A stretch of DNA of 64,000 nt from Liolophura sinensis. Taxonomy: Eukaryota; Mollusca; Polyplacophora; Chitonida; Chitonidae. Location: the NCBI RefSeq assembly GCF_032854445.1, contig NC_088296.1:18093485-18157484 (forward strand), in the 5' to 3' direction. The notes under the pieces were generated by a model, which had not been told where the DNA came from, made no database searches, and saw only the letters and a program-made list of their open reading frames with translations. This document shows, in pieces, positions 13,044-62,200 of this stretch. The position numbers and the translations under genes were made by a program. The stretch's first letter is position 1, and each line of letters opens with the position of its first letter.

Positions 13044-13508
13044 GCCCAAAAACTTGTGTAGACAGACGCTTTCCCACGTACATAACCAAGGCCCAAAATC
13101 TTGTGTAGACACACGCTTTCCGACGTACATAACCCAGGCCCAAAAACTTGTGTAGACAGACACTTTCCTACGTACATAACCCAGGCCCAAAAACTTGTGT
13201 AGACACACGCTTTCCCACGTACATAACCCAGGCCCAAAAACTTGTGTAGACACACGCTTTCCGACGTACATAACCAAGGCCCAAAAACTTGTGTAGATAG
13301 ACACTTTCCTACGTACATAACCCAGGCCCAAAAACTTGTGTAGACAGACACTTTCCTACGTACATAACCCAGGCCCAAAAACTTGTGTAGACACACGCTT
13401 TCCCACGTACATAACCAAGGCCCAAAATCTTGTGTAGACACACGCTTTCCCACGTACATAACCAAGGCCCAAAAACTTGTGTAGACAGACACTTTCCTAC
13501 ATACATAA
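13044..13508. repeat. 47-bp minisatellite, about 10 copies
   Basis: The unit begins gcccaaaaacttgtgtag and ends acgtacataacccag. Two subtypes, 'acagacactttcctacg' and 'acacacgctttcccacg', are interspersed. Long minus-strand open frames across it are repeat artefacts. Confidence 0.95.
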
Positions 13509-18147: not shown

Positions 18148-20628
18148 CTATGCTGACGTCACCGTATACGAGATGTGCAGGCTTTTCAGCAGAGGTTGAG
18201 TAGACTTAAGGTCCTCTGCTAAAGGGGGGTACATTACTCTTTGAATAGCGGGTTTTTTAGGCCACGTAAGGAGTGTTGCCTCCAGGTTTTGTAAAGCTTC
18301 CACGGCTGCAGAATAAGCCTCTTCTACCTCCCGATTGCGAAGTTCCTGGTTTTCCTGCGAACAGAAAAAATCCTTTATACCTCATCTAAAACTGTGTGTT
18401 CAAGAAGTTATATATGTATGTGTGACAGGGTGAAATAACAGCTGTGTCTACAATGTACATCCGGGATGGAGGGGACTCCCCTTTAGTCTAGCGATGTACA
18501 TGTAAGTAAATAAACTTAATTTATTATTTATTTTATTTGATTGGTGTTTAACGCTGTACTCAAGAACACTTCACTTATACGACGTCGGCCAGCATTATGG
18601 TGGGTGGAAACCGGGCAGAGCCCGGTGGAAACTCACGACCATCCGCAGGTTGCTGCAAGACCTTCCCACTTACGGCCGGAGAAGAAGCCAGCATGAGCTG
18701 GACTTGAACTCACAGCGACCGCATTGGTGAGAGGCTCCTGGGTCATTACGCTGCCATAGCGCGCTAACCGACTGAGCCACGGCGAAGTAAATAAACAGCG
18801 ATTCTTACATGCCGATTGTTCTGGCTGTTATCATGTATGTAGCCCCAACCAAGACAACCTTACACATGTAAGTGTTGACTCAAAACCCAAGGTAGGTGGT
18901 TCAACCTCCAAAGGCATTGTGCCATTACAACCGATTTCTCCGAGCAGGGTGAGATGGTGAAGCCTTAGATGCTGGGGCTGGTTCAAACCCGAAAGCTGTC
19001 GCCCCATCAAGATCAAATGGTTTACGTATATATATATATATATATATATTATAGATATTATTATGAAAGCGTATGATCGGCGATAGTATATCAAATGGAG
19101 TTGTTGCGACGTGGGCATGTCGCGTATGTGTCAGTGAGAAGAAAGTCATATTAATGACACAATAGTCTGATTAGATAAACCAGAAATCTGTAAAATAGAC
19201 CCATCCTTCATGCAAATAAATCCCTCTTACATCAGTCTGTGCATTCCCCTGTTTAAGTTCTTATAAAAAGTGGGTCACTGTTCGGGTTTAACTCTTTAAT
19301 TGTAATCTACATATATAATATGTGACAGAAAACAGCTTTATCAAGACTGGATGATTGACAGCTGTAAGTTACCTGGATTTATGAAAGATAGCAATCCTCT
19401 ACATAGTCAAAATGGAGTCAACAGGGTATGTAGACAACAAAGGCTGAACAGGTGTCATGGACAATACCAACCTGTATCTTATTCTGCAGCCTCATAACTC
19501 CTGACATTGACTCTTTAGTTTCTTGTAAGACTTTCTCCAGTTCACTTGTCTTGTTCAAAATAGCTGGCTGTAAAGGAAAAAAATGCTACATTAAAAAATC
19601 TGCCTTTCACAAGACTCACTACAGTACAGGACAAAAAGCCCCATTCTTCGCTCTTGATCATAAGATTTGGGTCAATATATAGTTCCAAATCATGGCATAT
19701 TTATTTTGATTTTCGACTTATATACTAGCACGATACTTGACTTAGACAATGATTTAAGTTACTCGCTTAGAACATTCCTTGCTTCTTTCTAACATCATAG
19801 AAAACTGTTTACTACTTCCCTTTACATGATTCCAAAGTGATTTTGAACTTACACAATTAGTTTTAGTTTTTTTCCTGGTTCATGTTAATCGTTGTTTTGG
19901 GAATTGACCTCATGATTAATGGCTCAGAACATCCATTTTGGTTGTCTTTTTCGCCTTACCTTGACTTTCGCAGCTGCAGATTTTATATCCTGCATAGTGT
20001 GTCCTGGATGCTCAACCACACACCCCATACAGATCACCATCCCACACGGTACACAGTACAAGCCGAATGGCTGACCGTGCCTGGCACAGGACGGCTGCTG
20101 AGTTGATTGGCGGTCCCTGCTGACTTGACCCTGTGAGGTTTCCTGGGAGAGGTACTCCAGGGAGGAAATCAGTTGATGCCGTTTTAGAGCCCCCCTCATT
20201 GGATGGCAATTTGCAAGACATTCCTGACAGTAGAACACAGCACAGGTGGTACAAAACTTGACAGCTTTAGCCTGATTATCCTCCTCACACAGAGAACAAT
20301 ATGGGGTGTCATCCTCTACCTTTACAGCAGACGAAAACTTCTCCACAATTTCCGCCAGATGAAAGTTGAGAGGCAGACCAGCCACACCTTCTCTCTTCAG
20401 ACTGGTCGGTGCCCGACACACGGGGCACGCTATCAGCTGATGAATGCCCTCATTCCCCGTGTTTCCGGAGGTCTTATCTGTCTGCACAGGTTTGGACTTG
20501 TCAGCATGCAAACCAATGCATTCCATACAAAAACTGTGCTGACAGGGTAGCATTACTGGTTTCCGGAATGTTTCCATACATATAGAGCATGTGGGAACAT
20601 CGTCCAGATTCTGCTTGCTTTCAGCCAT
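18148..20628 (-). CDS. TRIM-type RING/B-box/coiled-coil protein
   Basis: Three coding exons on the minus strand: 20628-19960, 19567-19472 and 18354-18148, all phase 0 with GT..AG borders, giving 323 residues. The start MAESKQ is chosen because an upstream 3' splice signal (tttttatttcag, ending near 20655) would make the longer open frame 5' UTR. The RING finger C3HC4 is C14, C17, C29, H31, C34, C37, C68, C71, with an unusually long loop between C37 and C68. B-box 1-like zinc ligands lie at 111-151 and B-box 2 at C181-H210 (CARHG..GLYCVPCGMVIC). A coiled coil follows (about 215-300), then a short tail ending at a stop. There is no SPRY, NHL or filamin domain. By family it is a probable E3 ubiquitin ligase. 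A SINE-1 copy sits in intron 2. Confidence 0.9.
18516..18784 (-). mobile_element. SINE-1, near full length, with 12-bp target-site duplication
   Basis: Inverted copy running from the tail (ttatttattttatttgattgg) to the tRNA-like head ('cgctaaccgactgagccac'). It is flanked by a perfect direct repeat aagtaaataaac at 18504-18515 and 18785-18796. It lies in the last intron of the TRIM-type gene and interrupts another repeat (compare 'gtaaataaacagcgatcc' at 22256). Confidence 0.9.
18818..19084. repeat. Direct repeat R1, right copy (267 bp)
   Basis: The fuller copy of the sequence at 17571-17752, with a (TA)n core at 19025-19050. The last TRIM-type coding exon lies between the two copies. Confidence 0.85.
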
Positions 20629-24004: not shown

Positions 24005-26043
24005 ATGGTGAGGAAATACAAACGTAAATCCACTAGGGACAATACGGGAACCAACAACTTACTTTGGCTTTGGAAGCAGTGAAAGGGGGTATGCCACTCC
24101 TGCGAGCGTCGAAGGAATTTGATATTCCCCGTAGGACCATAAGACGCCACAGGGATCGACTGGTGGCCAATCCGGGTGTTTTCACGTCTTGGTAGACATC
24201 GTGTTATCCTCACAGAAAATCTCGAGAAAGAACTAAATGACCAAATTCAGTATATGGAAAAGTCTCTCTACGGACTGACCACACAAGACGTTAGAAGACT
24301 CGCCTACGAGCTGGCTGAGGCAGTTGGATTGCAACACCCATTCAGTCATGATCGCAAAATGGCTGGGAAGGACTGGCTTTCAGGATTTCTCACTCGCCAT
24401 CAAAATTTGAGCATTAGAGAACCTCAAGGAACTAATCTCTCCAGGGCGGTTGGGTTCAACAAACCTAAAGTTCAACAGTTTTTCGGTGTGTACAAGGAGT
24501 TGCTTCAATCTGAGGAATTTACACCTGCCCGTGTTTGGAATATGGATGAGACTGGGATAACAAGCGTACATAAGCCAGGGAAAATTCTTGCCACCAAGGG
24601 CGTGAAACAGGTGAGCCGGATGACAAGTGGAGAGCGTGGCAAGACGGTGACTGTGATTTGTGGAATGAATGCTGCAGGCATGTATGTACCCCCTATGCTT
24701 ATTTTCCCCCGAAAGAGGATGGTCGATGCGTTGATGGCCGCGCACCTCCGCAAGCAGTCGGTTATGCAAGCCCAAATGGGTGGACTGACGCAGAACTTTT
24801 TCTCAGGTGGTTGGAGCATTTTGTGAACTTTACAAATGCTTCAAAAGATGTTAAGCAAATAATTATTCTTGATGGTCACCACAGTCACAAAACACTGGCG
24901 GCAGTTACCTACGCACGGGAGCATGGCTTGCATCTTCTAACTCTGCCACCCCACAGTACACACAAGATGCAGCGTTAGACAGGACGTACTTCAAATCCCT
25001 CAAGAGTGGGTATAATGCAGCATGTGACTCGTGGATGGTTGCCAACCCTGGGAAGCGAATTTCATTCTTCGAAATGGCTGCTATATTTGGCAAGGCTTAC
25101 CTGAAGTCGGCAACACCTGAAAAGGCTGTTGGGGGGTTAGCATGTTGCGGAATATGGCCTTTTGATGAGAACATATTTCCAGATAGTGAGTTCGCCGCAG
25201 CTGCAGTGACAGATGAACCTGAACCCCAGAGAGAGACAGCTAATGGACAGGATACACCCATTACAGAATTGACAGGGACTGTCCGTTCTACCGAAAAACA
25301 GCCGAGCGCGGCCATCGGCGAGGAAGAAACTTCTGGTTCTTCGAGTGAAGAAGCTACACAGTTACCACCACCATCTGTACCAGGCCCCAGCACTCAAGAT
25401 GTACCTGGTAATTAACCTCTATGACAGCGTATTTTCTACTAAGTGTGTAGGCCTGCCTAAATGACTGTGTTTTGCAACATACAGGGAGTCTTCTGTCTAA
25501 ACTATACTTAATTTGTCTGGTTCATATATTGTTGAAAGTTATATTGTTGTCTTGAGAGTGAATGGGCGCCTTTGTTTATTTCAGGCTCAACAGCACTGCA
25601 GAACTTAATTCGAAGCTTGTCACCGACTCCAAAGCTAGCAACCTCGCGAGCAAGGAAGAGGAAAGCTGAAGGGGTGCGGCACTGTTAACCTCATCTCCGT
25701 ACAAGGCAATGCTGGAAGAGAAACAATCTTCAAAAGATGGCAAGGGTAAGAGGGGTAGGAGAGCTGCCGTCAATAGCTCAGGAAAGAAGAATGGCAAGGG
25801 AAATGTGAAGGGAAAAGGGACTGTGGAAAAGACAAAGGACGCCTGTGAAGACAGCAGCGACGAAGACGAAGTATGGCCTTGTTTGATTTGTGGGGAGCCT
25901 TTCTCCAATTCCAAATCAAGGGAAATTTGGGTGAGTGTGTAACATGTCTGCAATGGGCACATGAAGAATGTACAAACGGGGAAAAGGTGTTTTTATGTCC
26001 GAACTGTGAATCTGACCAGGATTCAGAAGATTCAAGTGATTAA
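24005..26043 (+). pseudogene. Broken pogo/Tigger-type transposase
   Basis: The start ATG at 24005 encodes MVRKYKRKS. An N-terminal helix-turn-helix (LTLALEAVKGG..RASKEFDIP) is followed by a CENPB-type HTH (KDWLSGFLTRHQNLSIREP) and a DDE_1 domain. DDE acidic residues are in VWNMDETGI (about 24535-24560) and IILDGHHSHKT (about 24870); the third, in a PLDRTYF segment, lies just after a frameshift at about 24973. Further frameshifts lie near 24052, 24178, 24736, 25678 and 25920. A likely intron is 25408-25584. The C-terminus is Lys/Ser-rich and ends in a PHD-like zinc finger (CLICGEPF.., then WAHEEC and FLCPNC). Upstream 'cttgtttcag' may be an acceptor. The gene cannot make a working protein as it stands. 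Confidence 0.88.
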
Positions 26044-28960: not shown

Positions 28961-29284
28961 TATGTTCCAGAAACCACTAATGAACACAAAACACATCCGA
29001 CATACATGTACAAGAAACCACTAATGAACACAAAACACATCCGACAACATGTACAAGAAACCACTAGTGAACACAAAACACATCCGACACACATGTACAA
29101 GAAACCACTAGTGAAAACACAAAAACACATCCGACACACATGTACAAGAAACCACTAGTGAACACAAAACACATCCGACAACATGTACAAGAAACCACTA
29201 GTGAACACAAAACACATCCGACAACATGGACAAGAAACCACTAGTGAACACAAAACACATCCGACACACATGTACAAGAAACCC
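28961..29284. repeat. 43-bp minisatellite, about 7.5 copies
   Basis: The unit holds 'caagaaaccactagtgaaca' and 'aaaacacatccgac', with 1-2-base length variants (aca/acac). Confidence 0.95.
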
Positions 29285-38900: not shown

Positions 38901-41900
38901 TCTTATTAAAAGTGAAAACTGAAAAAAACTAGTAGGTATTTACCATATTTACAGACTTAAAAGCTGAAAGACTACTGTTTTTACTTGGATGGGTTAAAAA
39001 AAATTCGTTTCGGACAGTGCTGTTAGGTAATATTGTTATAAAGCTGAAGTTGTAACTATCGGAAATTTTGGCAGCAAAATTCTTGTGAATGCTATTTTTT
39101 ATCATTTGGACCTTAGTTTGGCAGCCATACTGGATTTCAAGCAAAAACCTTCTTCTTAAGAACCAATGGACAGATCCTTCTAAAATTTTATATGCACGTA
39201 GAACGCTACTAATTACATGAAGTTTGAACAAAAAAAAACTCCATAAAAATTGGTTGAAAACATTAAAAGTTCAGCATTGTTTAGTGACTCCAGGACAGAC
39301 TTTTTCAAATAATCCACTGTATCTCATATATTTACCCCAAATTTCATCAATATCTAATCAAGATTCACCTATCCATTTTGCCCGATTCTGGCTACTCTCT
39401 TGATCAAAGAAAGGTGTTTCAAGGTTTGTTTGGAAGCCAGGATGTTTTCCTTTTTCAGCACTAAAAGAAAGATGTTGTGACCTAAATGGTCCCTGACTTA
39501 CTTTCCGTCTGTCCCAGTGTTAGCATAAACAACCATCCCTACAGCGTAACGCTCCACAATCTCCTCAAACTCTCGCAATTTCTCTGGGACTTGGAATCCA
39601 TGGCTCTACCAAAAGAAATTATTACAAGTATTTTTAAAGCTAATTGGTGTTCAATCCCATATTCTGGAATATTTCATGAATACAATACATGTCAGGTACA
39701 TATATTTCATTCATTTGATTAGCATTTAAGGTCATATTTTTACACAGTAGTAATGTTTCCTTTACAGAGCGCCAGAGTGGATGGAAATAACCAGATGCTG
39801 TATCCCACCCAAGGTTTAGCATCTTTCAAGTGACACCTTTAGCTTGATTCTCATTGCTTTATCCACCTCTTCGGGCCTCCTGAAAGTTTTTTGTTAAGTT
39901 CGATTAATTTCTTATAAGAAAAACTTAATTGCTGGCAATAAAATCATCGTCTTCACACGTTCATGGGCTTCTGAGAGTTGGTTTTAACCTACAAACTTTA
40001 TATGAAATATAGCACCTTTGTTCCATGTGTGACACAAGGATTTTATTGTGATGGCCAAGATCAAAATGAATGTCATAATACTGAAATGCAAGCCCTCTGC
40101 AGCAAGCACTCTCCATCAAGCCCTCTAGAGCAAGCTCTCTCCAGCAAGCTCTCTTCAGCAAGCACTCTACAGCAAGCCCTCTGCAGCAAGCCCTCTCCAT
40201 CAAGCTCTCTCCAGCAAGCACTCTACAGCAAGCCCTCTCCAGCAAGCCCTCTGTAGCAAGCCCTCTCCAGCAAGCCCTCTCCAGCAAGCCCTCCACCAAG
40301 CTCTCTCCAGCAAGCCCTTTCCAGCAAGCCCTCTCCAGTAAGCTCTCTCCAGCAAGCACCCTCCAGCAAGCACTCTCCAGCAAGCTCTCTCCAGCAAGCA
40401 CTCTACATCAAGCTCTCTCCAGCAAGCCCTCTACAGCAAGCTCTCTCCAGCAAGCCATCTACAGCAAGCCCCTTTACAGCAAGCACTCTACAGCAAGCAC
40501 TCTCCAGCAGCCTTCATGTAAGACAACATCAGCTGCCTCCCAAGCACCAATATTTTTGGGGTGCAGAGGAACCAGGGTCCTCACAGAAAATTACTGCCAG
40601 CCCCTCTTCATAGTTTGGATGTGCCTTGTACTTTCAAAAATGGTGTTCCACTCCCCCCTCCCCCTTATTTGCCCTGGAGTATATGGACATACCATCCAAT
40701 TAAAACGTGATATTAGAATCAGCCTGCATTTCTGTGGTTGCATAATCTTACCTTACGGCACACAATATCATCCCGGACATCAACCATACAGACTTGCTCC
40801 TTGGGGTCTAAACTCGAGTCAATCCCTGATGCCAAAAAAAAAAAAAAAGAGGCAAAATGAAACCATTTATTCCGGTTAATTATTCCATTCATTTATTTAT
40901 TTGATTGGTCCTTAGTACCTCAAGTACCTCAGTGGAGGTGTATCCTGTAAATATTAAGTAAAAAAAATGATGCCTGAGGTGTATCTGAGGTATAGCTGAG
41001 GTGCATGCTTATAGGCAAGTTGGATGTACACTATTTTCACTTTTATTTTGATACAAAGCAAGCTCAAAACACTTAAATATTGGCTATGTAAATTATAGAT
41101 AAATTTACAAAGTTTAAAGTTTGAAAATGAATGCTGTTCCTTGTTTGAAGTATCTGTAAAATCTCAGCTGATTTACAACAATAACAGTGATACACATTTA
41201 CATGAGGCTTTCTAGCTGCTTGATCAAAATTTAGTGCTACTCCTTTTCTATGCCTGTTACAACTGTTCGTCTGTCCAAACCTGTTACAAATTCAGTACAT
41301 AATTGGGTTGTTTTCCCAAAGCCTGGAATATATATGCACATTCTTCAGGGCAGCCATCTTGGAATAATCTGGGGCAAATATATCCATGCTCTGTGATTGG
41401 TCAATATTTGCACACTGGATGGCAAGTCAGTGTAGGGTGAGACAAAGGCTTATATTTATTTAGTAAACATTTTTTTCTTTTGCACAAGAACACTTGTAAT
41501 TTTGTACTCACCATTTTGTCTCAACTAAAATGTCTAAATCTGGTCCCTTCATTTAAACCTTGTTTCAACAAAGTAACTGAAGTGTACCTGGGGTACATGA
41601 CCACTAAATTATAATCAAAATCTCTAACGTGTACCTGACGTACCTGTGCGTCATTTACTTTTTTTAACTTTTAAAGTCTTTAAGGTGTACCTGAGCTATA
41701 TCGTCAAAGTGTTGATTTCTTTCAACGTTGCTGAGGTGTATTTGATTTATTTATTTATTTGACTGGTGTTTTACACAATACTCAAGAATATTTCACTTAT
41801 ATGATGGCGGCCCGCATTATGGTGGGTAAAAACCGGGCTAACCCAAGACCATCCGCAGGTTGAGAGGTGTATTTGAGGTACATTATCTCATATTCAAAAC

Positions 41901-44900
41901 TGCTCAAAAAATCTTAAAGTTTTTCCGGTGTACCTGAGATACATCATTTACTTCTTTTAGCTTTCATTAGCTTTCAAGTGTTGATTTTTTTTTCAAAGGA
42001 TGTTCCTGAGGTACATCCGAGTTATAGGCATATGGCTGGGGTGTATCTGAAGTACTACAGTACACCTCAGATAATATAGGTGGGGTGTACACCTGATCTA
42101 TACCTCACACTAAGGTGTACATGAGGCATACACCCCATACACACCTCATCTATACCTCATTTATACCTCACACTGAGGTGGACACCTCGTGTTTGGAAGA
42201 GTAAATTACACTGAAAGTTGCTCTTTTAAATGTGAAAAGGTTGAGGAGTTTGAATGGGTAACCGAGAGAACAGAAGCAGATCAGTATAGAATCTTGAAAA
42301 TTTCTTGCATGAAACAGTCTGCGCCTCTTAAATGACTTTGCCATTGGAATTTCATTTATTTGTTTATTTGATCAGAGTTTTACGCCATACTCAAAAATAT
42401 GTCACTGATACAACAGCGGCCAGAAACCCACATCCATCTGCAGGTTCTTAGCCGCAGAAAGGAAAACAGGAATGACCCACTGACAATTCCGTTTGATGTT
42501 CAGAATCAATAAGATAAAATAATTAGTCTAGACAGATCCCAGATTGTAAATCACATTTGTAAGCCGGAGTACCAGACCTTTTAATTTTCCCCTTGCCCCC
42601 GTGGCAAACCAACCAACACTTAACACCCCGCACTAGTATGGAGCTTTAGGAACAATGAGTTAGGCGTAAATTAAGACATGCAAATCTGATTTCCAAAACT
42701 CAATTTTGTTGTGCATGATTTTTATTATTTTGAACTGTGATATATCTTAGTTATACAACATTTTATCACAAAAGGGAAAAGGTAAAGCTTCTTGAACTTT
42801 GGTTAGAATACTCTTTCAACACATACATATATTTGGTCTAGTGTTGTCTTGTTTTTAAAATGGCAGGGCTTTAATATACATTTATTTGAGCAAGTCCTTA
42901 CCCAGAACTTGCTCAAGTTTAAGCCTCTCCTCCTTCACTCCGGGTATGTTCCCGTAGTTCGTCAGCGTTTTGTGCGTAAGTTTCTTGAGAAAGTCACAGT
43001 GATGTCCATTGGGAAAGAGGTACTCCTTTCCTATATCCTGAGTGTAGAGAACCACATTGCCTGAACAACAGAAAGACAACATTATGAGTGAAGAGAGCCA
43101 CATTGCCTGAACAACATAAAGACAACATTATGAGTGGAGAGAGCCACATTGCCTGAACAACAGAAAAACAACATTCTGAGTGAAGAGAACCACATTGCCT
43201 GAACAACAGAAAAACAACATTATGAGTGAAGAGAACCATATTGCCTGAACAACAGAAAGACAACATTGTGAGTGAAGAGAACCACATTGTCTGAAGAAGA
43301 AAAGACAACATCCTGAGTGAAGAGAGCCACATTGCCTGAAGAACTGAAAGACAACATTATGAGTGAAGAGAGCCACATTGCCTAAACAACAGAAAGACAA
43401 CATCCTGAGTGAAGAGACCCACATTGCCTGAAGAACAGAAAGACAACATTATGAGTGAAGAGAACCACATTGCCTGAAGGACAGAAAGACAACATTCTGA
43501 GTGAAGAGAACCACATTACCCGAGGAACAGAAAGACAACATTCTGAGTGAAGAGAACCACATTGCCTGAACAACAGAAAGACACCATTCTGAGTGAAGAG
43601 AGCCACATTGCCTGAACAACAGAAAGACACCATTCTGAGTGAAGAGACCCACATTGCCTGAACAACAGAAAGACAACATTATGAGTGAAGAGAGCCACAT
43701 TGCCTGAAGAACAGAAAGACAACATTCTGAGTGAAGAGAACCACATTGCCTGAAGAACAGAAAGACAACATTATGAGTGAAGAGAACCACATTGCCTGAA
43801 GAACAGAAAGACAACATTCTGAGTGAAGAGAACCACATTGCCTGAAGAACAGAAAGACAACATTATGAGTGAAGAGAACCACATTGCCTGAAGAACAGAA
43901 AGACAACATTATGAGTGAAGAGAACCACATTGCCTGAACAACACAAGACAATGTCCTAAGAGTAGACAGCCACATTGCCTGAAGAACAGAAAGGCAACAT
44001 CCTGAGTGAAGAGAACCAAACTGTCTGAAGAAGGAGAGAGACGACAGCATCCTGAGTGAACAAAATTTTTAATTTACAAGAAAACTTATGAGAAACTGAT
44101 TTTCTAACTCTTGTGAAAGTGCTTGCTGATGACCACAGGTGAAACAGTGAAAGCTGGATTTGAGTCTGGGACGTCTTTGGTCACAGGCTGCTAACATGAG
44201 GTTAATGGGCCTGTAAGGTTAATGGGCCTGTATGGTTAATGGGCCTGTATGGTTAATGGGCCTGCAAGGACACAATGTACATGTACTATGGGTTATACCA
44301 AAGATTTTAAAACAGTATTTTTTGCTTCCTCAGTTAGCGCTCTGCACCGAGAGGATAGAGCAGGAAAACAGGACTGGTCGGCCCTGTGTCAGAACAATGT
44401 GACTGGATGGAGTGTCATGTCTGGTGTCTCTGCCATGATACTTCAGTGGTGGCAGCACTTTGGCAGCGTGAACACGCCTTGCCACAAGAAGACACAGTAT
44501 ATGTACACACACCTAATGACTCCTTGTCGTTATGTCTGAAAAATTGCGCAGTACGACGTAAAACCCCAGGTATGCACACATTCATATTCAAATCTTATGA
44601 ATGAAGGTCTAAATGCTAAAAAAAAAACATTGGCAATACATAAAATACTAAATTTAGCAACTACGTCAAAAGATGTAGATGAACTAACATAATATACATG
44701 TCTACATGTATCTGAGTTTTCCGGTGATAATTGTTGGAAATTTCGAAGAATTGAACCAAAAAAGTTATTTTCACGTCTTACTTACCTGCTTTCTTTAAAT
44801 GGACAGCTCCGTATATTCCTGCCACTACACACCTTAATGAATCTATTGTCCTCTGTGTGTTTGTCGAATGTGGGCTAGAAAGGTAAAGAATTTTAAGGTA

Positions 44901-47724
44901 GTGAGTGAACTGATAATAACAATCAAAGTGCTAAAATGTAGACTGGTAGGAACTGAAGCCCTGAAGAAATTCACCAGAGCTTCATTTTTGAGGTATGCTA
45001 TTCCGCTTCCTTTAGTTCACATTTATTTATTTGACTGGTGTTTTACGCCGCACTCAAGAATATTTCACTTATGGTGGGAGGAAAATAGTGTGGGGTTCAC
45101 ATTTCAGAAATACTCAACTATTAATCATGGTAAATAATTTGCAGAATTTAGCTTAATTTTCCGCAAAGGGGGTGAAAAGCAAACTTTATGAGTGAATGTT
45201 TGCTAATGACTTAAACACAGCATATTTACCTGTCAAAAATATTAATTTATTTATATGATTGGTGCCGTACTCAAGAATATTTCACTCCTGTATTAAGCTG
45301 TGAGAAACCCCGGCTCGGGGGGAAAACCCTTGACCACCCCTGCAATTTGCTAACAGACCTTCCCAGGTATGACTGGAGAGGAAGAGAAATTGATTACCAT
45401 CCATGGATGACTGAAACTAAGACTGAAATAAAAAATCTATGATAGGAAATGTATGTGCATGGATATCAGAGTCAGATAAAGCCTCTGGCCAATAACAGCC
45501 AGAGATCAAAACAAATTATTGCAATTCTTCAACCTTTTCACATGTTTGCAAGGTGTTTATTTAAGCAAATTCTGAGGTAGACTAATAAAATTAATCTTTT
45601 TGTGAAGCAATGAAATCGGACAATACAACCAATGTAAATTTGTCTGCAAAATCAAATTAAAAACCTGTATAACTTGCACTGAAAGTGGCTTTTTCATATG
45701 CAAAAAAATTGAGGATTTCGGCTACTCACAGAATACTGTCAGGGTCATACTGATCACTGATTAGTCCAAACTTGTCTAGGTACCGCCTCCGTATCCGCCT
45801 CCCAAGCATGTAAGTCTGGTCTTGTCCTAGACAGGTCAGTTGACCAATGTAAGCTCCGCCCTAACAAGACACAAAATGATTGGCATGCTGATTGACAATG
45901 TCACAAGTGATATGTAAAAAATATTAGAATTTTTTCATCTGGTTTTTGCGTTTAAAGAGGGCCTGTGTTAAAACCATTCATACATGTGTTCGTCTCTTTC
46001 TGAATATTTCTTAGATTTCTGATTTCTGTGGTTTTAAAAGGAAAAAAAATTAATAAAATCGGAAAAAAGAAAATAGAGAAATTTTTACTTTAAGTGTGTG
46101 TTTCCTGTAATGCTTCTCCAGAGAAGATTCTGGTCTTGCTCCTCCTCCAGTCAAATCACGTAGAGTGTAATTGTACAGAGTATGTGGTACCCCTGCTAGG
46201 AAGAGCCGAACTTCATAATTGGCCTGGAAAACAAGGAAAACTGGCAGCTTCATAAAGTTGAATCATAACAACAATCAGGATGACTCTCTATAAAATCCAT
46301 GAGGAAGTTTTGCCATTTTTAAGCCGACATACACGGATATTTCACTTATATGATGGTAGACATCACTATGGTGGTAGGTAATCCATGACCATCCGCAGGT
46401 TGCTGGCAGACCTACACACGTACGACCGGGGAGAAAGCTAGCGTGAGATGGACTTGAACCCACAGAGACCGGACTGGTGAGAGGCTCCTAAGTTATTACA
46501 CCTGCTGGCACGCTAACCACCTCTGCCACAGATTCCCCCAGGTATCATCTGTCATAGCAAAACCATTTCCAAAGTGGGAGGTCTACGTATCACATTAGAA
46601 ATATTATATGATTTTATGACATTAATTTATTTATTTATTTATTTGATTGGTGTTTTACGCCGTACTCAAGAATATTTCACTTATACGACAGCAGTCAGCA
46701 TTATGGTGGGAGGAAACCGGGCAGAGCCTGGGGGAAACCCACAACCATTCGCAGGTTGCTGATAGACCTTCCCACCTACAGTTGGAGTGGAAGCCAGCAT
46801 AAGCTGGACTTGAACTCACACCAACCGCATTGGTGAGAAACTCCTTGGTCATTACACAGTATAAAAAGCTGGTAAATTCTGATCAAAAATAGCAGGGTGA
46901 TATGCCCATGAAAGTCTATGATGATGACGAGTCCACTATGACGTCAGGGTTGATCTGGGTCCACATATGATGGCCAGACCTGGGCATCTGAGCCGGCTAC
47001 AGGTACCATGGATGGAAGATATTCACCATGGCTGGAGGATATTCACCATGGCTGGAGGATATTCACCATGGATGGAAGATATTCACCATGGCTGGAGGAT
47101 ATTTACCATGGCTGGAGGATATTCACCATGGCTGGAGGATATTTACCATGGCTGGAGGATATTCACCATGGCTGGAGGATATTCACCATGGCTGGGAGAT
47201 ATTCACCATGGCTGGAGGATATTCACCATGGCTGGAGGATATTCACCATGGCTGGAGGATATTCACCATGGCTGGGAGATATTCACCATGGCTGGAGGAT
47301 ATTCACCATGGCTGGAGGATATTTACCATGGCTGGAGGATATTTACCATGGCTGGAGGATATTCAGCTACGATCCGGCTGTGCTGTAAATCCTGTTTCAA
47401 TCAATCATCAACGTTACCGGTAGGCCTACTGCAGAGATTAAAAGACAACCAGCACCTTACACATTTTGATTTTACCTGTTCAACATTTGGTATGGTTTTC
47501 AAAGGGGTCCGTGCTCCGTGACGAAAGAAAATCTGCACCTGTTTTAACGTCAGCTCACTTTCGATTTCGTTATCAACTTCGCGCTCAACATCAACCGCTT
47601 TGTTGTCTGCGAAAACAGTTCCGGTATTTGACTGAAACCTCCAACGAACGCCTTTATAGGCCATCAGACCAAGAACAGCAGATCCAGTCGCACTACTTAA
47701 CTGCAGTATCAATCTTCGATTCAT
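35980..47724 (-). CDS. ACP6: Lysophosphatidic acid phosphatase type 6-like histidine acid phosphatase
   Basis: Eleven exons (minus strand): 47724-47476, 46223-46089, 45860-45730, 44874-44786, 43060-42902, 40825-40752, 39605-39502, 38878-38792, 37490-37322, 36920-36788, 36089-35980. All have GT..AG introns and consistent phases, giving 479 residues. In vertebrates ACP6 is mitochondrial and converts lysophosphatidic acid to monoacylglycerol. Here the N-terminus (MNRRLILQLSSATG..) is basic and hydrophobic, fitting a mitochondrial signal. The catalytic RHGARTP is at residues 68-74 and HD at 353-354 (CHDTSL). Other family landmarks are GGAYIGQLT, LFPNG, GIDSS and KWPPFA. Oddity: the conserved RSTN reads HSTN (residues 174-177), replacing a phosphate-binding Arg. 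The C-terminal tail is longer and acidic. Introns 1, 4 and 6 hold minisatellites and intron 5 a degenerate tandem repeat. Confidence 0.92.
36226..36346 (-). repeat. SINE-1 fragment in last ACP6-like intron
   Basis: 'catcattatggtgggaaaaa' to 'ggttgctgacagaccttacc'; both ends are lost. Confidence 0.65.
38030..38240 (-). repeat. SINE-1 copy in ACP6-like intron 8
   Basis: Inverted copy from 'gatttatttgggtttttcgc' through 'gagctggacttgaactcac' to a remnant of the head. Confidence 0.8.
38403..38575 (+). repeat. SINE-1 3' half in ACP6-like intron 8
   Basis: From 'aaactctctggctgtaagtg' to 'aatcaaataaataaataaat'. Confidence 0.85.
40085..40510. repeat. 14-bp minisatellite, about 30 copies, ACP6-like intron 6
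   Basis: The unit is close to agcaagccctctcc, with variants (agca, tcaagctc). Apparent proteins read from it are artefacts. Confidence 0.95.
40884..40914 (-). repeat. SINE-1 tail stub
   Basis: 'catttatttatttgattggt' directly abuts the first tacctcaagtacctcag motif. Confidence 0.6.
40911..42190. repeat. Degenerate array of ggtgtacctgaggtac motifs, ACP6-like intron 5
   Basis: At least a dozen matches in both orientations (for example 40972, 41578, 41687, 41928, 42000, 42058-42190). A longer surrounding unit (tctttaaggtgtacctgag then 'caagtgttgatttc') recurs at about 41675, 41910 and 41990. The right end (42055-42190) is nearly all motif and self-complementary. Confidence 0.65.
41745..41862 (-). 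repeat. SINE-1 copy inside the gtgtacctgag array
   Basis: 'ttatttatttgactggtgtt' to 'gaccatccgcaggttg'; the array motif resumes immediately after. Confidence 0.8.
42351..42450 (-). repeat. SINE-1 fragment, ACP6-like intron 5
   Basis: 'catttatttgtttatttgat' to 'catctgcaggttc', with a deletion in the body. Confidence 0.7.
43061..44060. repeat. 46-bp minisatellite derived from ACP6-like exon 5 splice acceptor, about 21 copies
   Basis: It starts at the base next to exon 5. On the minus strand each unit is about 20 bases of intron (pyrimidine tract ending gttgttcag) plus 26 bases matching the first 26 of exon 5 (GCAATGTGGTTCTC..CACTCAGGAT). The array thus repeats the real 3' splice site. 46 is not a multiple of 3. 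Confidence 0.92.
44310..44585 (+). repeat. SINE-2 copy, diverged
   Basis: 'cctcagttagcgctctgcac' head to the 3' end 'gcgcagtacgacgtaaaacc', in ACP6-like intron 4 next to the minisatellite. Confidence 0.65.
45018..45385 (-). repeat. Two SINE-1 fragments, ACP6-like intron 3
   Basis: 45018-45085 ('tttatttgactggtgtttta') and 45243-45385 ('attggtgccgtactcaagaa' to 'acagaccttcccaggta'). Both are inverted and 5'-truncated. Confidence 0.75.
45510..45655 (-). repeat. Dispersed repeat E, copy 1
   Basis: Read on the minus strand, 'aaataaacaccttgcaaaca' then 'tgtgaaaaggttgaagaat' matches 58140-58190 almost exactly. A third copy is at 52847-52985. Confidence 0.65.
46316..46540 (-). repeat. SINE-1 copy, ACP6-like intron 1
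   Basis: 'acacggatatttcacttata' to the head region 'gcacgctaaccacctctgcc'. Confidence 0.8.
46622..46855 (-). repeat. SINE-1 copy, ACP6-like intron 1
   Basis: A well preserved tail and body ('ttgattggtgttttacgccg'); it stops in the head at 'ggtcattacacagt'. Confidence 0.85.
47005..47368. repeat. 20-bp minisatellite, about 18 copies, ACP6-like intron 1
   Basis: The unit is gctggaggatattcaccatg, with variants gatggaag and gctgggag and a few attt. It is highly regular, so probably young. All three plus frames are open by arithmetic. Confidence 0.95.
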
Positions 47725-55917: not shown

Positions 55918-56372
55918 ACTTCTCCTACCCATACCTTCTCATACTTCTCCTACCCATACCTTCTCATACTTCTCCTACTCATACCTTCTCATACTTCTCC
56001 TACCCATACCTTCTCATACTCCTCCTACCCATACCTTCTCATACTTCTCCTACCCATACCTTCTCATACTTCTCCTACCCATACCTTCTCATACTTCTCC
56101 TACCCATACCTTCTCATACTTCTCCTACTCATACCTTCTCATACTTCTCCTACCCATACCTTCTCATACTTCTCCTACCCATACCTTCTCATACTCCTCC
56201 TACCCATACCTTCTCATACTTCTCCTACCCATACCTTCTCATACTTCTCCTACCCATACCTTCTCATACTTCTCCTACCCATACCTTCTCATACTTCTCC
56301 TACCCATACCTTCTCATACTTCTCCTACCCATACCTTCTCATACTTCTCCTACTCATACCTTCTCATATTTC
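55918..56372. repeat. 25-bp minisatellite, about 18 copies
   Basis: The unit is catacttctcct then acccataccttct, with sporadic C/T changes (acccat/actcat, cttctc/ctcctc). It is very regular and starts about 30 bases after a SINE-1 tail. Confidence 0.95.
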
Positions 56373-56399
56373 TCAGAGCCCAAAAGAATGAGGGAATTA

Positions 56400-58203: not shown

Positions 58204-59014
58204 GCAGAACTCCAAACGAGAAATGGTTTACATGGACATATTCATACACACGTGTATATCTAAATTTGAACACTGATAAAGAAGTGGTTTAAAAAACATG
58301 TCAAATACATGTACACATGTATCTTCATGCACAGCATAGATTTAGCCCAAATTTGAAATCAGACTATGTCATTTTTATTTTTCTCCGGTTTTCCCTGTCT
58401 CTCTCGTGTTAATTTTCTCAGAATAGGGGGTCTCCAAGACCGGAAACATTCCCTCTGCCTAAAGCTATAATGTGAAATACATATTAAGTTTGAAGAAACT
58501 AGAAGATGTACCCAAGTTTGAAACATACTAATATGAGATACTTTTGAACAATCTGAAATATTATGTTCAACTACAGTGCCTAAGTTTTGGACAAGCCAGA
58601 AATCCAAAAATCTAAACTTAGAATTAACAGTTTAGACTGAGATATAACAATGTACATGTAATTTTTGTGACGAACCAGGAAAGAAACATTGAATGAACTT
58701 GATTCTTGGGGAAACAAATTTTCCGCAATTAACATTTCCCAAAATCTCCAGGATCCCATTAATCAAAATTTAATTGGTGGCTAGTGTTAAGGAAATAGCT
58801 GATCAACAGTTCCTTAATGATAGGGGTCAGTGGTCAGTTTATCTGATGGTCACACTCCCATGACAGGACAGTTGAGCCCTTGAGGGATGACTCCAGTTAC
58901 ATTCTCACATTTCTCTCTTTAATGACCTTTAACTACCTTGAGGTACAAAGTTGCTTTAAAAAGGGTTCACTTCAGTCATTCTATGGAATTCGAGACTGCA
59001 AAAACATCCTGGTA

Positions 59015-59231
59015 CTTCCCATTTTACTTGTGCCCACAGACATTACTTCCCATTTTACTTGTGCCCACAGACGTTACTTCCCATTTTACCTGTGCCCACA
59101 GACGTTACTTCCATTTTACTTGTGCCCACAGACGTTACTTCCCGTTTTACCTTTGCCCACAGACGTTACTTCCCATTTTACTTGTGCCCACAGATGTTAC
59201 TTCCCATTTTACTTGTGCCCACAGACGTTAC
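59015..59231. repeat. 31-bp minisatellite, 7 copies
   Basis: The unit is cttcccattttacttgtg then cccacagacgtta; one unit has a single-base deletion. Confidence 0.95.
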
Positions 59232-62200
59232 TCGCAGACTCTCACATAGAGGTGAACCTATGGTGTAAATAACATACATTTATCAGGTAATACGAAATTC
59301 TTCATCAAAGGAACATAAAATCACTCTTTTCAGTTTACCTCAGTTTTTATTCTACTTGTTCATGTAAATGTGCAGACAGTAGCAAATGGTATGCCCCCTA
59401 GCGCCATTGCTTAAGCAGAATTAAGTGAAAAAAAAGGGGATTTATTAGACGCTGGTCTAAAAGTACTTTTAAAAAGGCTTTTCTATGGAAAGTATAAAAT
59501 TATCATTAAATATTGAAAACAAAAAAAAAAAAAAAAAAAAAAAAAGATGGAAGAGATGGAAATCATTTAACACTTGAAGAAACCAGTAGTAATCTTGTTG
59601 ATAGCCAAACTGTGAACAGTCGACCTAGGATGTATGTGAATCATCTGTCTTCTATCTGTCTAATCTCGTTAGCTGTACATTCCTTCTGCAATTCTCTGTG
59701 TGAACAAGCAGAGAATTGTGACAATTGGCCGAAATTAAGTTATAAGACTGATCCGAATACAAATATTGGTGTTAGAAATCTAATAATTGGTAAAGATTGT
59801 CCAGCTGAGTGACCACAAGGTTGACCATTGGGGGAACGGCAGCAGGGCAGTGGTGGTTCCTTAGTGACTTGACCATCTGGCCCAGATCCTGGGGTGCCCA
59901 CCGAGTGGGAATAGATGACTGGGTATTGTACAGTGAGACAGGACTCATTCAGAATCTGGAATTAGTACCCACGATGGTGTCCCAAAGGCGACTAGAGGGT
60001 TAGGATTAAAGAATTGACAGGGCCCGGAGTTCATTCAGAGGCCGGACTGATACCATAATGGAGGGTTGGAAGTTGTAGAATTGACAGGGGTTTCGGTTTG
60101 GACCTCTGGACCAGCGCCTTTATGGTGGCCTAAAGAGAAATACAGATGGAACTGGCATTGGTCTCATACCACATGAATCAGATCCAAACCACAGATTAAT
60201 TTTTGACATTGTACACACATGTATATATAAAAACTCAATACCTTGAAGTACATACAGTGTGTGGAGAAATAATTGGAACAGCTTTAGCAAGCTTGCATCT
60301 TTAAAGGCAGGAGAGATCATTGTAGCAAACTCCACTGAAAGAAAAAAAAAGAGGTTTGCGTTCAGTTTAAGAATCATCTTAACACAAAGCACTGAATATA
60401 AAACTAGTCAGTGTTGTGTCATGGCATTGATCAGTTCTTTTGCTGTTGGTCAAAGAATTGATTTACATATTCTGAAGTGGGCTACATGAATTCGACTGCA
60501 TGGATCAATTTCTGGATGGTTTAACTTTTTGTGTCTGAATTATTTCCTGGGAATGGTCACATAGTGACAGAAAGAATGTCCCTTGGGAGATGAGCAGGGA
60601 TAGTGTTGTTTGATTAACCAGTGTCCTGTTTGACTTTACTGAGATCACCCAAAGCCCTTATTATAAGGCTCCAAGGACTTATCCTCTGGAGGAAGCAGAC
60701 CTTATTAATATGATATTTGGCTTAGTTTACTGAGCCACACACGATATCTGATTTGACAGCGCTTCAATTCTGGCATGAATAATGTATGATGAAGCTGAGG
60801 CTGAAGTTGGAATCCCACTTGTATGTCCGTTTTCATATTCTTTTTATTATGTTACTTAAATGTAACAGGGTTATAACTTGACTGTTAACCGTTTCATTTT
60901 TATGATGATACGGTGGTTTCATTTTTTTTTTTTTTTTTTTTTTTCGTAAGGGAAACAGGATTTTACGTTGGTTTCGGTTATAAAATGTGAGCAAATTAAA
61001 TTCTGTTTATTTCCCACACAGGTATTTTAGTGCCCAGATTCAACTGACTCATCCCAGTAAAGAAATCCGTTGTCGTCAGTTTTGGGTGAATAGAAGGCTA
61101 TAATTTTTTCTATGGCCTGGAGAAACATTGTGCCACTTTCATTTTTAACGATTTTAGTAATTATGGTATGTTATAAATCTTGAATGTGGACATGCATACA
61201 AATAAAATGTTATATTCAAAGCATGCATATGAACAAACAGTGAGATAAGTTACAGTTTGAAAACAGCAATTCTTGTCTGAATTAACAAATAGAACAGTCA
61301 AGTTAAAAATGCGAACATGAACAGTTATAGTTTGTCTCAGAAAAACAATGCGGTCATTGTAAGTTCAAGTCCAGCACATGCTGGCTTCGTCTCCAGCTGC
61401 GTGTGGGAAGGTCTGACAGCAACCTGTGGATGCTGTCATAACGCTGGTGATCATTGTATAAGTGATATATTCTTGACTAGAGCTTAAAACACCAATCAAA
61501 TAAATAAAGACAGAGAAAGTTCCATTTAATTTGTACCATTCAATTACATGTACAATGCACATGTAAATCTGTATGACACTCAAGTTGCATATTTGACAGA
61601 CTTCATTAATTTCACAGGCATTACAAAAAAAAATTGTAAGTATAAATAGCAAATACTTACTTGTAGCTTTTGCCCCCATTTGACCACATTTAAAATAAAT
61701 GTCCTAAAATTTGCTGACTCAGCTGTTTGTCATTTCTTGACATGAAAAATATGTTACTGGATGTGACTAAGCTGTGCAGACTCAGATGGTATGTGTACTG
61801 TATGACTAAGAAAATCTTTTATGTGTCTGGTGTACAGTTACATGTACAAAGACAGATATGGTATGTAACAGGCTATTTTTAGATGTGGGGAATACCCATA
61901 ATGAGTCCATGCACAGTGCTCTTTCTTGATCAGTACATCAGCACATGTGTATATGTGAAATTTCTTGTTATACTCGAATATCACATAATCCGAGGACTTC
62001 AGGGATTACAGGGATTAACGTAGGCGGGAATGATTCCAGATTGATAAGGAAATAATTGTTGTAGATACATGTATAAATATGTTTAATCCGTTTTGCCAAC
62101 AGGCCCTGAGATGCCAGCGAAAATAGATTTATTATAGGCTGGGTTCTTAATAATATGTCATATTTCGTTCTGCTTATGCTGTTATAAGTATATAATGAAC

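Follow-up and report, generated by a model that had tools for sequence, protein, structure and literature searches.

Tandem copies of intron-exon boundaries, termed mirages, have been described in the amphioxus genes encoding Adh3, troponin C and PGBD5 and in the globin genes BflGb6 and BflGb9 (PMC3087553, PMC3902484). The accessible parts of these two reports state or suggest that mirages do not disturb splicing; cryptic use of their splice sites is allowed for by the authors, who also proposed a model in which introns of amphioxus globin genes are gained from duplicated junctions (PMC3087553). A literature search with terms other than mollusc or chiton returned a single such array outside amphioxus, a minisatellite of human IFI6, and no mollusc case; in the text available from two further papers, 'mirage' denotes a transposon (PMC9071541, PMC9912274). 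A previous interpretation of the chiton locus described here, which was made from the letters alone (the sequence-only reading), could name no standard example of it in ACP6 genes; the phenomenon is not without precedent, since the amphioxus mirages and the human IFI6 minisatellite, as presented in the accessible text, embody the same idea (PMC3087553, PMC3902484, PMC4526556).

A partial protein was joined by hand from reading frames of the window, i.e., the whole stretch of 64,000 bases that was analysed. Among 12 matches of this partial protein, the best was the structure 4job of human ACP6 (lysophosphatidic acid phosphatase type 6) with an E value of 1.3e-54, and exon 1 encodes RHGARTP, an instance of RHGARxP, which we take to be the histidine-acid-phosphatase motif. 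Judged by its sequence, the gene is ACP6-like, as had been proposed, with human ACP6 as the closest solved structure. The histidine-phosphatase family has 13 matches genome-wide, one of which is a late exon in the window. The join of exons 4 and 5 keeps the frame (KKA/GNVVLYTQD; here and below, a slash marks the junction), and GNVVLYTQD, encoded by the start of exon 5, is aligned with GPIIIHTDE in human ACP6. The exonic half of the repeat described below therefore consists of long-established coding sequence and gave rise to the repeat rather than resulting from it, in line with the earlier proposal that the units derive from exon 5.

At the acceptor of exon 5, Tandem Repeats Finder (TRF, period 46) reports a 46-bp minisatellite at 43038-44032 with 21.7 copies, 90% matches and a score of 1556; a tandem array with such a score is not due to chance. 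Walking upstream from the acceptor on the minus strand yields 22 unit-length segments between 43061 and 44069, 19 of 46 nt and three of 45 nt, the outermost of which is strongly diverged. Both approaches bear out the claim of a tandem acceptor array of about 21 copies. The composition given for the unit (pyrimidine tract, AG and first 26 bases of exon 5) is likewise recovered by the walk: each unit consists of the last 20 nt of intron 4, comprising the pyrimidine tract and CAG, and the first 26 nt of exon 5. Read with the exon part first, the unit is GCAATGTGGTTCTCTTCACTCATAAT followed by GTTGTCTTTCTGTTCTTCAG, and exon 5 itself starts with GCAATGTGGTTCTCTACACTCAGGAT. The array had been placed with its start at the intron base touching exon 5; it does adjoin the acceptor, but the repeat crosses the junction of intron 4 and exon 5 and reaches about 23-26 bp into the exon. 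The pair of bases preceding the 22 upstream unit starts is AG in 20 cases, GG in one (43519) and TA in one (44069), so that tandem acceptors are indeed present, with 20 unit-type decoys ahead of the real one. Altogether, the array holds 35 AGs, namely these 20, the real acceptor and 14 others, 11 of which are part of ACTCAG within the exon-derived half of the unit. In two branch-site-like words, TTCAC and CTCAT, the A is located 28 and 24 nt, respectively, ahead of the real junction, and both words fall within exon-derived repeat sequence. The coordinates of these features and of the kinase arrays discussed below are listed in Table 1.

Table 1. Positions of the exons, repeat features and edge-crossing kinase arrays; the first six rows refer to the window, the others to the respective kinase locus.
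Feature	Position	Strand	Details or basis
Exon 5, ACP6-like gene	42902..43060	-	159 nt, intron 4 phase 1, donor GTAAGG
Exon 4, ACP6-like gene	44786..44874	-	89 nt, donor GTAAGT
46-bp minisatellite with 20 unit-type decoy acceptors	43061..44060	-	TRF, unit walk, AG count
Partial copy in the exon (the 26 nt at the start of exon 5), serving as template for the exon half of the unit	43035..43060	-	residues align with human ACP6
Real acceptor and pyrimidine tract	43061..43080	-	sequence reading
Outermost, most diverged unit; upstream limit of the array	44025..44069	-	edit distance 15 to consensus
37-bp array, acceptor	L035:563-880		eight upstream ACAG sites
80-bp array, acceptor	L036:1-398	+	four decoys and the real TTTCAG/ATAG
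67-bp array, donor	L043:1-380		ATGG/GTGAGT and four further GTGAGT or GTGAAT copies; tyrosine-kinase exon
65-bp array, donor	L049:12-355		real GTATGC, followed by five copies of GTAAGC

Further copies of the array were not found elsewhere in the genome: a 240-base piece has seven matches, all of them within the array at 43061-44069, in a search that skips very common words. Intron 4 contains a second array at 44199-44269, which consists of 4.2 copies of a 17-bp unit whose copies look like acceptors on the minus strand (TACAG/GCCC). The other arrays within the gene do not touch any of the eight placed exons. When the four arrays of the gene were placed randomly with respect to its eight exons, several edges of which are a few bases off, some array overlapped some exon in 82% of the trials, and one array ended 15-46 bp within an exon in 16%. 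Because random overlap is so frequent, the fact that an array meets an exon is less remarkable.

Several units are identical to each other (9, 16, 18 and 19; 15 and 17; 1 and 14), and one block of two units is repeated, which points to a recent expansion. The outer units 20, 21 and 22 differ from the consensus by edit distances of 12, 6 and 15, respectively. Base 16 of the exon is A in the exonic copy and T (18) or C (1) in the 19 full units; the exonic copy therefore lies outside homogenisation. The edges of amphioxus clusters likewise escape homogenisation, according to the available text (PMC3087553). Tandem arrays are prone to mis-assembly, and the length of this array was taken from the assembly, which would fit an artefact in which the array or its copy number is not real. 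Most units differ from their neighbours, however, and PacBio HiFi reads with an average of 8,347 bp, as given in the accessible part of the source (PMC11068029), are long enough to span a 1-kb array, which makes an artefact extremely unlikely.

The presence of so many acceptors raises the question of what their use would entail. When exon 4 is joined to any of the 22 upstream unit starts, the frame runs into a stop, located either within the array or within exon 5 (22/22), and a premature stop likewise follows from each of the 34 AGs that precede the real acceptor in the array, including those that restore the frame. In-frame extensions are therefore excluded for this allele. The sequence-only reading had envisaged in-frame extensions of 46 residues and minus-strand frames that stay open through the array; the latter are interrupted by stops. 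These premature stops, which are also met from all 20 unit-type decoys, would suit a poison-acceptor array, i.e., decoys that are used appreciably and give rise to stop-bearing transcripts that are degraded, whereby the length of the array would tune the output of ACP6. The strength of the decoys also speaks for this possibility: over 15 positions, the pyrimidine content of the tract is 73% at the real site and equal or higher at 16 of the 20 AG decoys, and a branch-site-like word is present 24-32 nt upstream of all ten acceptors sampled (the real one and nine of the 21 upstream ones). The tract alone can therefore not account for the choice of the site. However, neither the AG nor the intron half of the unit is specially conserved: among the 19 full-length units, the exon and intron halves both show 1.0 changes per column, and the AG pair varies at least as much as 658 of the 1035 column pairs do. 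There is thus no sign that the decoys are maintained by selection. Purine runs, moreover, are absent from the array, and the amphioxus mirages are reported, in the parts of the papers available, as leaving splicing undisturbed (PMC3087553, PMC3902484). Taken together, a poison-acceptor array is considered improbable.

Purine hexamers occur at 88/kb in exon 5, at 0/kb in the array and at 5-43/kb in other intronic stretches of the gene; the array, in which any motif density amounts to one unit counted about 22 times, stands out by its lack of purine runs more than exons do by having them. The opposite holds for UCUU, a word bound by polypyrimidine-tract-binding proteins, which reaches 49/kb in the array versus 3.2-8.4/kb in counts from five other stretches of the gene's introns. 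From its composition, the array might act as a pyrimidine-rich silencer that gathers these proteins, thereby regulating exon 5 or sequestering the protein. This appears very unlikely, since a single pyrimidine tract present in about 22 copies accounts for the UCUU density and since one 311-nt piece shows no strong RNA fold (z = 0.78). The ordinary fold of this piece also led to the rejection of a model in which the decoys are hidden by RNA structure. The creation of new exons through donors inside the array was rejected as well: the donor words GTAAG and GTGAG do not occur within it, and GTAAT occurs once.

The explanation that is preferred, and held to be quite probable, is that the array is a junction-spanning minisatellite, or mirage, of neutral origin whose decoys are mostly skipped and which is removed with the intron. 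A 46-bp segment over the boundary of intron 4 and exon 5 would have been duplicated in tandem and expanded on the intron side, presumably by slippage or unequal exchange. Each unit would thereby bring along a 3' splice site with a branch-site-like word, a pyrimidine tract and CAG, and exon 5 would still be recognised via features that the copies lack, namely a donor close by and purine-rich sequence past base 26. The decoys would then be mostly skipped and the array spliced out with intron 4. Exon definition is an established principle of splicing and would favour the real site, which is followed by purine runs and bounds an exon of 159 nt, whereas use of a decoy would result in an exon 5 of 205-1123 nt. 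Splicing probably proceeds to the exon-proximal site. What speaks against this explanation is the presence of 20 near-identical acceptors with branch-site-like words, from which some competition is expected; the decoys may be used, but this idea is unsupported.

Minisatellites are common in the parts of the genome that were sampled. A sample of 190 kb, made up of 19 segments of 10 kb each from fixed positions on six contigs, contains 42 merged arrays with a period of at least 10 and a score of at least 100, which cover 10.9% of its sequence. The window, with 10 arrays on 3,666 of its 64,000 bases (5.7%), lies below this value; further minisatellites in it are located, for example, at 13044-13508, 28962-29283, 40088-40509, 47005-47365, 55918-56374 and 59013-59232. 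The window also harbours a SINE-like interspersed element on both strands (e.g., at 18570, 46676 and 38505), of which the word TTCACTTATACGAC occurs 16 times with at most two mismatches. The palindrome TACATGTA is found 30 times in the window versus 1.9 times expected from base composition, and the reading frames at 24143-25412 are presumably DDE-transposase-like.

Exon edges were surveyed in the protein-kinase family, a small survey of a single family with 138 matches, in which 131 of 842 candidates were scored. The main set comprised 33 matches with open frames of at most 120 amino acids and 350 bp of flank, some of which contain stops. In four of these 33 cases, a tandem array extends into the matched exon sequence, as judged by TRF and by reading in register; in five additional matches, which had longer frames and were taken with 250 bp of flank, none of the exons was overlapped by an array, giving 4/38 in total. 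Two of the four arrays cross an acceptor (L035, L036) and two a donor (L043, L049), and all four exon pieces have a Pkinase match above the cut-off. The decoy copies of L036 carry the acceptor and the first ~33 or so coding bases of the kinase exon. The weakest of the four is L049, in which, according to TRF, no more than 5 bases of the match belong to the array. A stricter test, in which exon 14-mers had to recur in the flanks, detected only L036 among the 33, so that the evidence for L035, L043 and L049 comes from TRF and from reading in register; with the same test, the known exon-5 array yields just two recurrences, which is a weak detection. At locus L057, a 31-bp array (561-664) starts 16 bases outside the kinase exon match and was left out of the crossing count.

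Over the 66 edges of the 33 exons, array coverage outside the exons is flat, with 6.0-10.4% per 50-bp bin and 7.1% in the nearest bin, and it drops to 0 beyond 60 bp inside the exons. Splice sites are therefore not visibly spared; only the body of the exon is. Mirages may be common in this chiton, and the duplication of splice sites may be well tolerated. A more far-reaching reading is possible but rather doubtful: exon edges might be pervasively tandem-duplicated, at thousands of junctions if 4/38 holds, with arrays arising as frequently as minisatellites within introns, even directly at the splice site. The spliceosome would then routinely have to rely on exon context to pick the right one of many near-identical sites, and output could be tuned via stop-generating decoys in some arrays, including the ACP6-like one.

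Near-identical natural acceptors offer a direct test of what guides the choice of the spliceosome beyond the splice site itself, and exon definition could be studied as in a natural experiment if a genome had numerous arrays of this type, differing in length and placed at donors as well as acceptors. The same arrays bear on intron gain from duplicated junctions as modelled, in the text accessible, for amphioxus globins (PMC3087553). The wider lead, the frequency of exon-edge arrays in this genome, is of greater interest than the single locus.

The host of the array is a chiton, whereas the described mirages come from a cephalochordate, to which the phenomenon would be confined if it were specific to amphioxus. 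On the mitochondrial contig, ND1, CYTB, ND4 and ND5 are encoded on the strand opposite COX1 and COX3 (Pfam and frame reading), an arrangement which we take to be molluscan and not chordate. Contig C99 carries seven COX1 matches about 15.5 kb apart, which look like head-to-tail mitochondrial copies. Like ordinary intronic minisatellites, the ACP6-like array is a tandem array, but it additionally crosses the junction into coding sequence. Compared with the amphioxus mirages, as far as the available parts of the papers describe them, the array likewise consists of minisatellite-like tandem copies of an intron-exon boundary (PMC3087553, PMC3902484). Many amphioxus copies retain an intact AG or GT on the acceptor or donor side, and the chiton array retains AG at 20 of its 22 upstream unit starts; both are homogenised within and diverged at the edges of the cluster. 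The units of amphioxus Adh3 measure 10-72 bp, a range that includes the 46 bp found here (PMC3087553, PMC3902484). The copy number differs, with about 22 in the chiton versus 6 and 3 on two haplotypes of BflGb6, where the units are 150-160 bp long. The human IFI6 minisatellite, according to the accessible text, also has tandem units that carry splice sites at an exon edge; however, it concerns the donor, and two of its units further downstream are said to serve as donors (PMC4526556). As far as the literature was searched, mirages thus extend to a second, distant phylum, and the ACP6-like array is a real, well-formed mirage of the known kind, most likely neutral and spliced over.
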